A DNA stretch of 52,165 bases. It comes from an uncultured Clostridia bacterium (GTDB lineage: Bacteria; Bacillota; Clostridia; Christensenellales; Borkfalkiaceae). Location of the stretch: contig CAMWIW010000012.1 of the NCBI GenBank assembly GCA_947174415.1, forward strand, positions 1 through 52,165, written 5' to 3'. The notes beneath the pieces are model-generated. The model had not been told where the DNA came from, did not search any database, and worked only from the letters and a program-made list of their open reading frames with translations. Within the stretch, counting starts at the first letter, position 1. Each line of letters begins with the position of its first letter. Positions 28,928 through 39,939 of the stretch are shown here, piece after piece. Position numbers and translations under genes: made by a program.

Positions 28928-28937
28928 GATAATTATC
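28928..28937. promoter_or_regulatory. Possible iron-responsive (Fur-like) site
   Basis: The palindrome GATAATTATC lies about 50 bases before feoA and touches the stop codon of the neighbouring cysteine-protein gene. It resembles the core of Fur boxes (GATAAT/ATTATC) but is shorter than the classical site. Confidence 0.35.
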
Positions 28938-29211
28938 ATAAATCGTCGGCTAAAATCTTCTCTATCTGAATAAGCTTGCTGCGCATATTTTTAATTATAT
29001 TTTTTATGTTCTCTTTTCTTTCTTTTTTTAACTCCTCGTTACTTTCCCACTTTTCGCAACAGTTTACATCCGTAACGTTAATCTTTCTGACTTTCCACGG
29101 AATTTCTTCATTTATACAATGCCCTGTATACATTGGCATAAATGAAGTATTTGTTTTTACGTAATGCGCTAAATAATGTTTGCAATTCCCACAATTTTTC
29201 TTTTGTTCCAT
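28936..29211 (-). CDS. Small cysteine protein of the HTH-paired module, copy A
   Basis: A 91-residue protein with C7-x2-C10, C32 (in TGHCINEE) and C51-C52-E-K-W, followed by a charged, probably helical tail (EELKKERKENIKNIIKNMRS, KLIQIEKILADDL). The four-cysteine spacing suggests a small zinc-binding fold. Two relatives lie at 32739-33005 and 39655-39939, each divergent from a small HTH gene as here. I do not recognise a named family. There is no ribosome binding site: TAAAAT ends six bases before the ATG, with TTAACA 17 bases further upstream, so the mRNA is probably leaderless. The promoter spacer is a palindrome. Function unknown; a repressor-controlled metal- or nucleic-acid-binding protein is one possibility. 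Confidence 0.75.
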   Translation of the reverse strand: MEQKKNCGNCKHYLAHYVKTNTSFMPMYTGHCINEEIPWKVRKINVTDVNCCEKWESNEELKKERKENIKNIIKNMRSKLIQIEKILADDL

Positions 29212-29217
29212 ACTAAT

Positions 29218-29246
29218 ATTTTAACCGTAATTTTTACGGTTGTTAA
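29218..29246 (-). promoter_or_regulatory. Promoter/operator of cysteine gene A
   Basis: On the minus strand: TTAACA (29246-29241), a 17-bp spacer, then TAAAAT (29223-29218). The spacer is the palindrome ACCGTAA-N3-TTACGGT, so a bound repressor would block polymerase directly. Confidence 0.7.
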
Positions 29247-29250
29247 GACG

Positions 29251-29271
29251 TTACCGTAAATTTTACGGTAA
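29251..29271. promoter_or_regulatory. Second operator of module A, before the HTH gene
   Basis: A perfect inverted repeat with 9-bp arms (TTACCGTAA / TTACGGTAA) and a 3-base gap repeats the half-site of the first operator, centre to centre 29 bp away. It overlaps the TAATAT (29269-29274) that lies six bases before the HTH gene's ATG, which fits autorepression. Confidence 0.7.
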
Positions 29272-29280
29272 TATTTAGCT

Positions 29281-29484
29281 ATGGATAAATTTGCAATAAA
29301 ATTAAAAGAAACACGAATTGAAAAAGGGTATACACAAAAGCAACTTGCACAAGCAATAAAGACTTCCGACGATAGTATCTATTCTTGGGAAAAAGGCAGA
29401 AGTCAGCCATCTATTGAAATGTTGCGCGCATTAAGTAGATTTTTAGAGGTTTCCACTGACTATCTATTAGGTTTAGAAGATTAA
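29281..29484 (+). CDS. Small XRE-family HTH regulator, module A
   Basis: A 67-residue protein that is almost entirely a Cro/C1 helix-turn-helix: LKETRIEKGYTQKQLAQAIK, SDDSIYSWEKGRSQPSIEML, RALSRFLEVSTDYLLGLED. The last 13 residues are identical to those of the module B regulator. Divergent from cysteine gene A across 69 bases holding two matching palindromes, it is probably their repressor. There is no ribosome binding site; TAATAT lies six bases before the ATG, so a leaderless mRNA is likely. A terminator follows directly. Confidence 0.88.
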   Translation: MDKFAIKLKETRIEKGYTQKQLAQAIKTSDDSIYSWEKGRSQPSIEMLRALSRFLEVSTDYLLGLED

Positions 29485-29487
29485 TAA

Positions 29488-29517
29488 AAATCCCCGCGGC
29501 GTTCGCCGCGGGGATTT
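29488..29517. terminator. Bidirectional terminator between HTH A and ileS
   Basis: AAATCCCCGCGGCG and its complement form a strong hairpin with A/T runs on both sides, serving convergent genes. Confidence 0.85.
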
Positions 29518-29525
29518 ATTTATTT

Positions 29526-38600: not shown

Positions 38601-38680
38601 TCGACCTTGTTCGCAAGTCTGTTAAGTTTTTTTAACGCGCTGCGGCTGTCCGCGCCCATTATGAATTTCAAAAGTCCCAT
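35663..38680 (-). CDS. secA: Preprotein translocase ATPase SecA
   Basis: A 1005-residue motor that pushes preproteins through SecYEG. Walker A is [20 protein letters not shown] near 100, [19 protein letters not shown] follows, then [18 protein letters not shown] and [28 protein letters not shown]. The C-terminal zinc-binding [17 protein letters not shown] is complete, preceded by a Pro/Ala/Glu-rich linker. A segment of about 60 lysine/glutamate-rich residues near 250 ([20 protein letters not shown]) is an insertion relative to short SecA forms. The ATG at 38680 has AAGGA seven bases upstream. Confidence 0.97.
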   Translation of the reverse strand: [1005 protein letters not shown]

Positions 38681-38857
38681 ATTCAAATCCTTAAAATAAA
38701 AATATCTCTGTTTATTGTACTATACTTTAGAAAATAAGTAAAATTTTTTTAAAAGAATTTACGATTTTTTCCGTACATTTATTTAATAACCGTTTGTAAT
38801 AAAGTTAAACCCCCGAAGACGTTTCGGGGGTAAGTAATTTAAAAAGTTAAACCGTAT

Positions 38858-39262
38858 TTAAAAATCGTTTTCAAAATCGATGTCGTATAAATCAATCCAT
38901 TCAACGCAATCGGAAAATCTTTTCTTTTTTATGTATTCGGTTATGATTTTATAAGCCGTTTCGCGGTTGACGTAAGCGCACTGAGGAACAACCATAGGCT
39001 CGCCGCCCACGTCGTGTTCAACGGTTTCGGTGCTTCCGTTTTCGTCATAAGGAACAATGTAATCGGGGTGGCGCATAATGAAGAAGCCGTATGGCTCGTC
39101 ATAGAAAAATAATAGCGATTCGTCGCAACCTTCTACTTCCAAAGAGGAATCACCGCTACCCTCCTGCCAAAAATCCTCGCCCTTATTGAAAATTATGTCC
39201 TTAATAAAGTCCTCGTCGGGATTTTCAATCATATCGCCGTCAGGTCCGTAAAATGTAACCAT
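38858..39262 (-). CDS. Imm1-like protein of unknown function
   Basis: A 134-residue acidic protein. The C-terminal half (VEHDVGGEPMVVPQCAYVNR, ETAYKIITEYIKKKRFSDCV, EWIDLYD) resembles the Imm1 family of immunity proteins from polymorphic toxin systems, where GGE-x-x-x-VP, a helix and a closing W are conserved. This resemblance is from memory and needs a profile search. No toxin gene is next to it. AAGGAG lies six bases before the ATG. It follows the HTH C gene on the same strand after 95 bases and could be co-transcribed with it. Confidence 0.7.
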   Translation of the reverse strand: MVTFYGPDGDMIENPDEDFIKDIIFNKGEDFWQEGSGDSSLEVEGCDESLLFFYDEPYGFFIMRHPDYIVPYDENGSTETVEHDVGGEPMVVPQCAYVNRETAYKIITEYIKKKRFSDCVEWIDLYDIDFENDF

Positions 39263-39357
39263 TCTTATCTCCTTTTTATAAAGCATTATAGATATCAACT
39301 TAATTTTAACCTATTCAGGTCAAAAGTCAATGATTTGTGCAAAAAAATTTTATAAAC

Positions 39358-39570
39358 TTATTTCCGTATTTCGTGCCCGATAAGCTCGTCCACCGAAATA
39401 CCGTAAAAGTCTGCAAGCTGTACACAGAAATCAATGTTTGGAAGTCCGTTTCCCGCTTCCCACCAACTAATCATTTGCTGTTTTAAACCCGTTGCTTTTG
39501 CGAGAGCGTTTTGTGTGTAACCGTTGATTTCTCTTTGATATTTTAAGGCATCGCCATAATTCAATTTCAT
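39358..39570 (-). CDS. Small XRE-family HTH regulator, module C
   Basis: A 70-residue Cro/C1 HTH protein: ALKYQREINGYTQNALAKAT, LKQQMISWWEAGNGLPNIDF, CVQLADFYGISVDELIGHE. It is more distant from regulators A and B but keeps the same length and the late [VI]S-x-D-x-L-[IL]-G. AGAGGA precedes the ATG. Divergent from cysteine gene C across 84 bases with two 16-bp inverted copies of one operator. Confidence 0.87.
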   Translation of the reverse strand: MKLNYGDALKYQREINGYTQNALAKATGLKQQMISWWEAGNGLPNIDFCVQLADFYGISVDELIGHEIRK

Positions 39571-39593
39571 TGTTCTTATCCTCTGTTAAATTT

Positions 39594-39639
39594 TTACATA
39601 AATTTCTGTTAATTGCTTGACTTACAGAAATTTATGTAA
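39594..39639. promoter_or_regulatory. Paired operators of module C
   Basis: TTACATAAATTTCTGT (39594-39609) and its exact complement ACAGAAATTTATGTAA (39624-39639) are separated by 14 bases. Each arm is itself a near-palindrome ACA-N-AAATTT-N-TGT, so two repressor dimers could bind, about 28 bp centre to centre. Confidence 0.75.
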
Positions 39640-39645
39640 TATTAT
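39617..39645 (+). promoter_or_regulatory. Promoter of cysteine gene C
   Basis: TTGACT (39617-39622), a 17-bp spacer, TATTAT (39640-39645). The spacer is filled by the right-hand operator arm, the same layout as in modules A and B. Transcription would begin at or within a few bases of the ATG at 39655. Confidence 0.7.
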
Positions 39646-39654
39646 ATTTTTGTT

Positions 39655-39939
39655 ATGGAAATTCAAACAGAAAAATTTTGCGAAAATTGTAATTATTTTT
39701 GCCAACATTATTTCAAAAGCAACCAAGGTAAGCTTATAAAAGTCTTTGGAGACGGGCACTGTATCAACAACAAACTTACCAAAGCCGTTTCGAGAAAACA
39801 CATTTCGAAATACCTTGCTTGCGAATTTTGGGAAGCCCAAGAGCATAAAATTGACGCACAACGGGAAGGCGTTATCAAAGTTATTTTCGAAATGCGGAAA
39901 ACGCTTAAAGATATTGCTTCCGTTCTACAAGACGATTAA
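39655..39939 (+). CDS. Small cysteine protein of the HTH-paired module, copy C
   Basis: A 94-residue relative of copies A and B: C9-x2-C12, C36 (in DGHCINNK), C56-E-F-W, and the helical tail KIDAQREGVIKVIFEMRKTL then KDIASVLQDD. GHCIN is shared with copy A and MRKTL resembles MRSKL (A) and IRKSL (B). No ribosome binding site is present before the ATG, and the -10 box is close enough for a leaderless mRNA. The stop codon lies within the terminator that follows. Function unknown. Confidence 0.75.
   Translation: MEIQTEKFCENCNYFCQHYFKSNQGKLIKVFGDGHCINNKLTKAVSRKHISKYLACEFWEAQEHKIDAQREGVIKVIFEMRKTLKDIASVLQDD

Follow-up and report, generated by a model that had tools for sequence, protein, structure and literature searches.

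The window analysed here is a stretch of 52,165 nt from an uncultured Clostridia bacterium of the Borkfalkiaceae (GenBank assembly GCA_947174415.1, contig CAMWIW010000012.1, positions 1 to 52,165), in which three copies, A, B and C, of a small two-gene module were studied. In each copy, a gene for a predicted XRE repressor with a helix-turn-helix (HTH) is divergent from a gene for a short four-cysteine protein, termed the effector. In module A, the effector, a protein of 91 aa with a helical tail, is encoded on the reverse strand at 28936..29211 and the 67-aa XRE/HTH_3 repressor (recognition helix region KTSDDSIYSWEKGR) on the forward strand at 29281..29484. The effector promoter TTAACA-17-TAAAAT (29218..29246, reverse strand) has its -10 box TAAAAT at 29218-29223 and its -35 box TTAACA at 29241-29246, and the 17-bp spacer between them, ACCGTAATTTTTACGGT, is the predicted operator A1 (29224..29240); a second predicted operator, A2, lies on the repressor side at 29253..29269, 29 bp from A1. 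Module B consists of an 88-aa effector (32739..33005, reverse strand), its promoter TTGACT-17-TATAAT (33026..33054, reverse strand) with the predicted operator TACCCCACATTGGGGTA as spacer (33032..33048), and a 67-aa XRE/HTH_3 repressor (33088..33291, forward strand) with the recognition helix region SVNQRSVSNWENSL. In module C, the 70-aa XRE/HTH_3 repressor (recognition helix region GLKQQMISWWEAGN) lies on the reverse strand at 39358..39570 and the 94-aa effector on the forward strand at 39655..39939; the promoter TTGACT-17-TATTAT occupies 39617..39645 of the forward strand, the predicted operator C1 is its spacer TACAGAAATTTATGTAA (39623..39639), and a second predicted operator, C2, is found 29 bp from C1 at 39594..39610. 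The distance from the -10 box to the effector ATG is 6 nt in A, 9 in C and 20 in B. An initial annotation of this DNA had proposed the three divergent pairs of an HTH and a cysteine gene, and their open reading frames (ORFs) were confirmed at the same coordinates, as were the spacing C-x2-C-x(20-23)-C-x(18-19)-C in all three effectors, the palindromic 17-bp spacers between near-consensus -35 and -10 boxes, and the second operators of A and C, each identical to the first at 16/17 positions. The best candidate at 29 bp in module B is only 11/17 identical, so that a second operator is assigned to A and C only. The host genome (G000, 1.59 Mb) carries six cysteine genes of this kind, not three as first noted.

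The three HTH proteins score 61.2, 62.2 and 49.3 bits against HTH_3 (PF01381), all over the cut-off of 23, and are plain HTH_3 proteins in which no sensor domain was seen (67 aa in the case of A). Their top NCBIfam model is phage_RstR (NF041951), at 59.0, 63.9 and 50.8 bits, below its cut-off of 80, and among PDB entries the repressor of A matches an Xre regulator of ICEBs1 best and also matches P22 c2 and the 434 repressor. The host genome gives 52 HTH_3 matches at E <= 0.001, a density of XRE genes that looks high for a genome so small.

The effectors belong to a large, unnamed family. A first profile matched 66/398 genomes in 8/18 genera of the host bacterial family; the class-level sample gave matches in 8/391 genomes including the host (6/222 genera), and in the phylum-level sample the host alone matched (1/299). 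The matches in the bacterial family were fetched, apart from one (G139:C16) that lies at the edge of its contig. Five duplicates (L006-L010) and two loci in which no cysteine ORF was recognised (L097 and L107) were dropped before counting, which left 123 cysteine ORFs at 111 loci, 12 of these loci having two such ORFs. The motif C-x2-C-x20-25-C-x8-21-C-x2-[WFY], used as a search expression, is fitted by 116 of the 123; the last gap between cysteines is 12 residues in 40 of these and 17-19 in 63. Proteins B and C are 24-32% identical to A, and in an alignment of 85 members (38/123 ORFs left out) the four cysteines and one glycine are invariant, a tyrosine and a tryptophan nearly so. The class-level relatives are short proteins without the long tail; nine of ten such loci have a recognised cysteine ORF and four have a divergent small XRE gene. 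Excluding the 8/111 loci with less than 350 bp upstream leaves 103. A small XRE gene is divergent from the cysteine gene at a distance of up to 150 bp in 69 of them and of up to 400 bp in another 5; in the remaining 29 none was detected, L104 included, where an XRE-like divergent ORF is of a type missed by the HTH profile. The initial annotation tied the cysteine family to an adjacent XRE gene, and this claim survives, with such a gene within 150 bp at 69/103 loci; at 8 of the 69, further repressors stand in a row behind the first.

The promoter arrangement recurs likewise. Of 72 intergenic regions, 13 shorter than 60 bp were excluded; among the remaining 59, the promoter scores 9 or higher in 49, compared with 1.05% of 2950 dinucleotide shuffles of the family intergenics, and the spacer was 17 bp in 45 of these 49. 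A strictly palindromic spacer was found in 23/59 (0.85% of shuffles), and a strong promoter together with a strict palindrome in 21/59 (0/2950 shuffles). By a second measure, in which any bases are allowed at the operator centre, 50/59 intergenics have a promoter of at least 8.5 and the spacer is palindromic in 47 of these 50; the null for this measure, made from shuffles of the regions upstream of XRE genes in the host genome, gave 13% among shuffles with an equally strong promoter. The co-occurrence of XRE gene and palindromic spacer, noted in the three copies, extends to their homologues (47/50). A divergent XRE gene, a near-consensus promoter of the predicted sigma-70 type and a palindromic spacer thus form one recurrent architecture, often with a second operator-like copy, which lies either on the repressor side, at about 29 bp or about 20 bp, or downstream, at 25-36 bp. 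After removal of 7/59 regions with a promoter score below 8, 52 modules remained, in 10 of which a distance of exactly 6 nt separates the -10 box and the effector start codon; in 19/52 the best -10-like hexamer lies exactly 6 nt from the repressor start. At such distances the transcripts would be leaderless, and leaderless transcription may be a property of these modules.

Across the 52 modules, similarity of the operator half-sites tracks identity of the recognition helices (Mantel r 0.26, 0/1000 permutations), and no such relation was obtained with the remainder of the HTH protein (r -0.002, 508/1000 permutations). In 30 pairs with a helix identity of at least 0.7, on average 7.47 of 8 half-site bases are shared, compared with 3.77 over all pairs. 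The match between helix and operator is strong, not absolute, since the helices are dissimilar in some of the 43 pairs whose half-sites are nearly identical. Helix and operator of type A recur together beside dissimilar cysteine proteins in other genera (L001, the window, with L083 and L059), and a TACGCG operator type does so at six loci in different genera, again with dissimilar cysteine proteins (L029, L038, L062, L087, L090 and L100). Furthermore, a solo HTH gene in G130, whose helix is nearly that of the module C repressor, adjoins the operator of C. It is well supported by these sequence comparisons that the recognition helix sets operator specificity and that repressor and operator are matched. 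Within the host genome, none of 136 pairs among 17 operators, a hand-made list that includes imperfect palindromes and the window operators, is at least 80% alike, and 2 pairs are at least 70% alike. Each repressor would bind its own operator, probably without cross-talk between copies.

The effectors assort independently of these matched pairs. Effector identity was uncorrelated with repressor identity (r -0.002, 473/1000 permutations) and with the operator (r -0.001, 511/1000 permutations); at L016 and L043, for example, the effectors are 90% identical, the repressors 27%, and the operators are different. Of the insulated, co-evolving pairs envisaged in the initial annotation, the matching of repressor to operator and the divergence of operators within the host stand, and a repressor that travels with its effector does not. 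Orthologous sites, whose neighbouring genes (feoA, feoB, ileS, tsaD, prfB, secA and adenine deaminase) were named by eye from the sequence, show the same. Orthologues of the module A effector occupy the site between feoA and ileS in three other genomes; in the window, G049 and G101 the cysteine genes are 58-62% identical, the repressors 23-34%, and the operators are of three different kinds, while in G097 the effector orthologue is present and the repressor region is truncated by the contig end. The module B effector has an orthologue between ileS and tsaD in G093 (51/88 residues identical), with an adjacent repressor identical at 25/67. The module C effector has one at the site between secA and the adenine deaminase gene in G097; at this site, the repressors of L002 and L014 are 70% identical, and helix and operator have changed together. 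Among 11 locus pairs compared, the repressor side differs in 8 and the repressor is kept in 3 (L002/L014, L106/L109 and L090/L087).

The ends of DNA homology outline the exchanged segment. On the effector side, homology ends 12 bp before the effector ATG in L001/L012, 1 bp in L001/L011, 15 bp in L012/L040, 4 bp in L003/L013, 2 bp in L101/L096 and 4 bp in L101/L106, and farther off, at 37 bp in L015/L016 (L015 without a detected HTH gene) and 65 bp in L016/L043. On the far side, it restarts 4 bp (L001/L012), 32 bp (L001/L011) or 30 bp (L003/L013) past the repressor stop, or 8-11 bp inside the 3' end of the repressor gene (L012/L040 and L016/L043). In L106, a new repressor stands in front and the old one, known from L101, is still behind it. 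Repressor and operator thus appear to have been replaced in place as a unit while the effector stayed. The dN/dS (nonsynonymous to synonymous substitution) ratios, 0.09-0.45 in effector pairs (11/14 computable) and 0.03-0.08 in repressor pairs (3/6 computable), indicate purifying selection on both genes.

A selfish or addictive element would fit some of this pattern, with a toxic effector whose repressor prevents loss of the module, or with an effector burst that aids establishment in a naive cell. The modules occur sporadically between core genes: of 30 ileS loci of the genus, counting that of the window, 13 have no module, with 40-111 bp between the end of feoA and ileS. The 17 operators listed for the host genome are also all unlike one another. 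The repressor, however, is not inherited together with the effector, a lethal effector would hardly allow 29/103 loci without a detected repressor, and no known toxin family was found over cut-off for the cysteine proteins, which makes this explanation improbable.

The same switch serves other genes as well. Examination of 46 distinct HTH ORFs in the host genome showed 35 of at most 105 aa, 24 of which have a strong promoter pointing away from them; in 16 of the 24 the spacer is also palindromic, compared with 0.33% of 1840 shuffles for both features. The partners of these small XRE genes include DUF6809 proteins, an EcoRI-type methylase, whose spacer is not palindromic, and unnamed small proteins. 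Five DUF6809 (PF20648) partners were tested, of which four exceed the gathering score and one falls below it. Furthermore, single switch types are common to cysteine modules and others: L192 (DUF6809) and L081 (cysteine); L144 in G106 (DUF6809) and L028 (cysteine); L179, with a partner that is DUF6809-like by eye, and L057 (cysteine); and L163, with an unnamed partner, and L096 (cysteine). DUF6809 and the cysteine family are alike as effectors under one kind of switch in the host genome, where 6/8 DUF6809 loci have a divergent HTH gene and a seventh (L232) has one if its start codon is moved; no sequence relation between the two families was seen, and DUF6809 outside the host mostly lacks a divergent XRE gene. 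The switch as a general property of DUF6809 was accordingly rejected (3/22 loci with a divergent HTH gene outside the host genome). DUF6809 was not found mentioned in the open-access literature searched.

Links to single-stranded DNA (ssDNA) phages of the gut come from the repressors. The top-ranked phage match of the module A repressor is the repressor of bajarodino virus 16 (L236), an inovirus (Inoviridae) from rodent faeces, whose helix NTTDDSIFSWEKGR, promoter TTGACA-CCCGTAAAAATTACGGT-TATAAT toward a divergent gene and further operator copies are all of type A. Similarly, the repressor of L046 has its top-ranked phage match in an unannotated ORF of the gut microvirus bajarodmic virus 166 (Microviridae), with the helix NTTQSTIAKYEREA and TTGACA-ATAGTCCAAAATGGAAT-TATAAT, whose spacer holds an operator of the AGTCCA type found at L046, L049 and L072. 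One inovirus and one microvirus thus have a helix and predicted operator of the same type as bacterial modules. In two gut microviruses (L237 and L240), an unannotated XRE ORF of 67-69 aa adjoins a consensus promoter that has operator-like repeats; this arrangement suggests that they are temperate. A loose operator pattern gave 32 matches in viral contigs, none with an HTH gene within 250 bp. Within the host bacterial family, a microvirus capsid gene occurs in 1/201 genomes and an inovirus-like Rep gene in 2/201; contig 13 (67 kb) of G141 (L281) holds an apparent integrated microvirus with a capsid ORF of 583 aa.

Two explanations lean on these phages. In one, a chromosomal phage repressor shuts down an incoming phage with the same operator, the cysteine gene being a passenger or reporter. 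This trans-immunity is consistent with the types common to inovirus and microvirus, with the diversity and in-place turnover of cartridges, with a solo repressor and its operators at L139 and with the repressors in a row at 8 loci; it is nevertheless unlikely, as the effector is under purifying selection and persists through repressor changes, with a near-consensus promoter in 50/59 intergenics. In the other, the modules would have been left behind by integrated ssDNA prophages, reduced to their immunity region and first early gene. The gene divergent from the A-type repressor in bajarodino virus 16 (1455-1772) also encodes a small cysteine-rich protein, and ssDNA phage genes do occur in genomes of the host bacterial family. 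The cysteine-family profile gives no match to that phage protein, however, no phage genes were recognised beside modules A to C among ORFs read by eye, whose neighbours look like core genes, and different effectors stand under one switch type with their genes under selection, so that such an origin seems doubtful.

As for the effector itself, Pfam and NCBIfam hold no family above cut-off for the cysteine proteins. DUF397 was found neither for A, B and C nor, for the 85 aligned members, among the families listed (25 of 47). PHROGs and PADLOC gave nothing over cut-off, and in scans with the 85 members the matches were weak, one to four proteins hitting any given family, those in PADLOC being scattered (1-2 members each, best 1.3e-4). 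One of the 85 weakly matches small subunits of the BssC/TutF family (E 0.002), which presumably have a fold like that of high-potential iron-sulfur proteins. Against the PDB, the N-terminal profile has a single match, a ribosomal chain at E 0.14, and the whole profile matches mostly coiled coils, aligned to the tail. A structure model from six sequences has a mean predicted local distance difference test score of 61.5, with the tail as a confident long helix and the N-terminal part mostly below 50. The effector may bind metal through its cysteines and oligomerise through a coiled coil and, more tentatively, may act in phage-host or element-host conflict. An ordinary small stress gene, for metal or redox for instance, under a simple autoregulated repressor would account for four invariant cysteines and for the position of module A next to genes read by eye as feoA and feoB; this is very unlikely, since the repressor is 67 aa of HTH_3 only, without a sensor domain, the regulators are exchanged, and the same regulator types serve unrelated effectors.

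From these data a mechanism can be proposed, in which a minimal XRE repressor would block the divergent effector gene by binding its palindromic operator, which takes up the whole 17-bp spacer of the near-consensus sigma-70 promoter. Binding at the second operator, nearer to its own gene, would render the repressor autoregulatory. Repressor gene and operators would form a cartridge that is swapped as a unit, the effector remaining. Since the repressor lacks a sensor domain, release by its loss, by antagonism from another protein or by titration by extra operators is plausible, and the effector would then be set free on repressor antagonism, on titration by the operators of an incoming phage, or in the absence of repressor upon entry into a naive cell. 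A rough probability of 0.55 is given to the reading that the module is a self-contained chromosomal switch, in which an HTH-only repressor of the phage-immunity type and a spacer operator stand over an effector as an exchangeable cartridge, of types partly common with ssDNA phages; the alternatives overlap each other and this reading, and the odds given to them need not add up to one. The regulatory side of the switch is well supported at the level of sequence. Our best guess for the effector is that antagonism, titration or loss of the repressor releases it and that it then acts in phage-host conflict, with metal binding and defence as possible properties. A more specific form is speculative and rather unlikely: the genome would be equipped with a set of tripwires, each a repressor on a copy of the operator of a small ssDNA phage. 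The operator copies or antirepressor of a multiplying phage would draw the repressor off, the near-consensus promoter would release the conserved effector and, as expected of a defence repertoire, cartridges would be updated from phages.

Several observations weigh against the exchangeable switch. The 29/103 loci without a detected XRE gene suggest that the effector is able to live without it. No convincing family match for the effector was found in the defence library PADLOC with the 85 members, and the structure model resolves the helical tail only. The cysteine family was found neither in viral contigs (queries: protein A and one alignment) nor in phage and plasmid collections (queries: proteins A and L101). 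On the phage side, only 2/10 regions inspected match a bacterial helix or operator type, the other 8 not doing so by eye; scans of viral contigs with two A-type patterns and one TACTAAA operator pattern gave no match, and a match of the TACGCG pattern in the 52-kb viral contig L235 adjoins a 143-aa XRE gene with a different recognition helix. Two ssDNA prophages of the family, L281 and L282, have no matching small repressor, nor has a third, L283, whose HTH ORF is of 189 aa and has a weak promoter. Lastly, the modules are mutually related, so that the permutation tests overstate independence, for which the rest-of-HTH control is a guard.

If the switch operates as proposed, the modules offer dozens of natural small repressor-operator pairs with a readable match of helix to operator in one promoter frame. 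They also document how, on a bacterial chromosome, repressor cartridges are exchanged in place next to a gene that is conserved, an exchange otherwise known from phage immunity regions. Furthermore, an unnamed effector family is tied to immunity types of gut ssDNA phages, which gives a testable route to its function.

The nearest described regulatory logic would be phage heteroimmunity, by analogy with RstR of CTXphi, a small XRE repressor divergent from the gene that it represses. The divergent arrangement and the operator-like palindromes in the partner promoter are common to both; the modules differ in being chromosomal with core-gene neighbours, not in an inovirus next to replication genes (by eye), in having a cysteine or other small protein behind the operator instead of rstA, and in HTH scores of 50.8-63.9 bits against the family cut-off of 80. 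According to the available portions of PMC11509585, allele-specific RstR acts on its own intergenic operator region (ig-2) and less on others, several alleles occurring in one strain. In the DicA/DicC-DicB system of the Qin cryptic prophage, as far as the accessible text of PMC10448788 goes, a phage-type repressor restrains a small host-acting chromosomal protein, which is released by an antirepressor or spontaneously; the modules, unlike it, have no recognised prophage context or Cro-like second regulator, and occur in many copies with different operators. The C proteins of restriction-modification systems, in the parts available of PMC4824078, are small autoregulators with paired operators and a near-leaderless transcript. 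Likewise, two host XRE genes are divergent from methyltransferase-like genes (L197 of the EcoRI type, L193 below cut-off) with spacers that are not palindromic by the second measure above, whereas the cysteine modules have neither methyltransferase nor nuclease, none having been recognised by eye among the ORFs adjoining A to C. At L197 in the host genome, the methylase gene (500 bits) faces an XRE gene of 99 aa.

Many paralogous loci of an XRE gene with a small-protein gene per genome are described for WhiJ/BldB/AbaA and the XRE-DUF397 pairs of Streptomyces in the accessible parts of PMC10294661 and PMC6262351; there, unlike here, WhiJ9 binds direct repeats and activates, DUF397 was not found in the modules, and those parts do not mention cassette exchange. 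Caulobacter XRE paralogues share targets with an XRE protein encoded by phage phiCbK (PMC10688885, available portions), so that paralogue targets overlap there, whereas here the operators differ per copy, each beside one adjacent gene. Type II toxin-antitoxin systems differ in that the module genes are divergent, not in one operon, and that effector and repressor, uncorrelated in identity, are not co-inherited. In the available portions of the open-access literature searched, which covered spacer operators, orphan or interchangeable repressors, operator titration in defence and repressors of ssDNA phages, no description was found of a chromosomal use of such a switch over several small effector families with in-place cartridge replacement.

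Some minor features of the window were also observed. The cysteine gene of module B ends 70 bp from ileS (intervening region 32670-32738), where an apparent TTTACT-17-TATAAT promoter was seen by eye. In two relatives tested (L132 and L144), a T-box leader (RF00230) is found upstream of ileS at about 54 bits (E about 1e-9; gathering score 93), and positions 32400-33400 of the window gave no T-box match up to E 1; the T-box appears to have been lost where module B sits. A lysine riboswitch lies at 49135-49316 of the window (75 bits).

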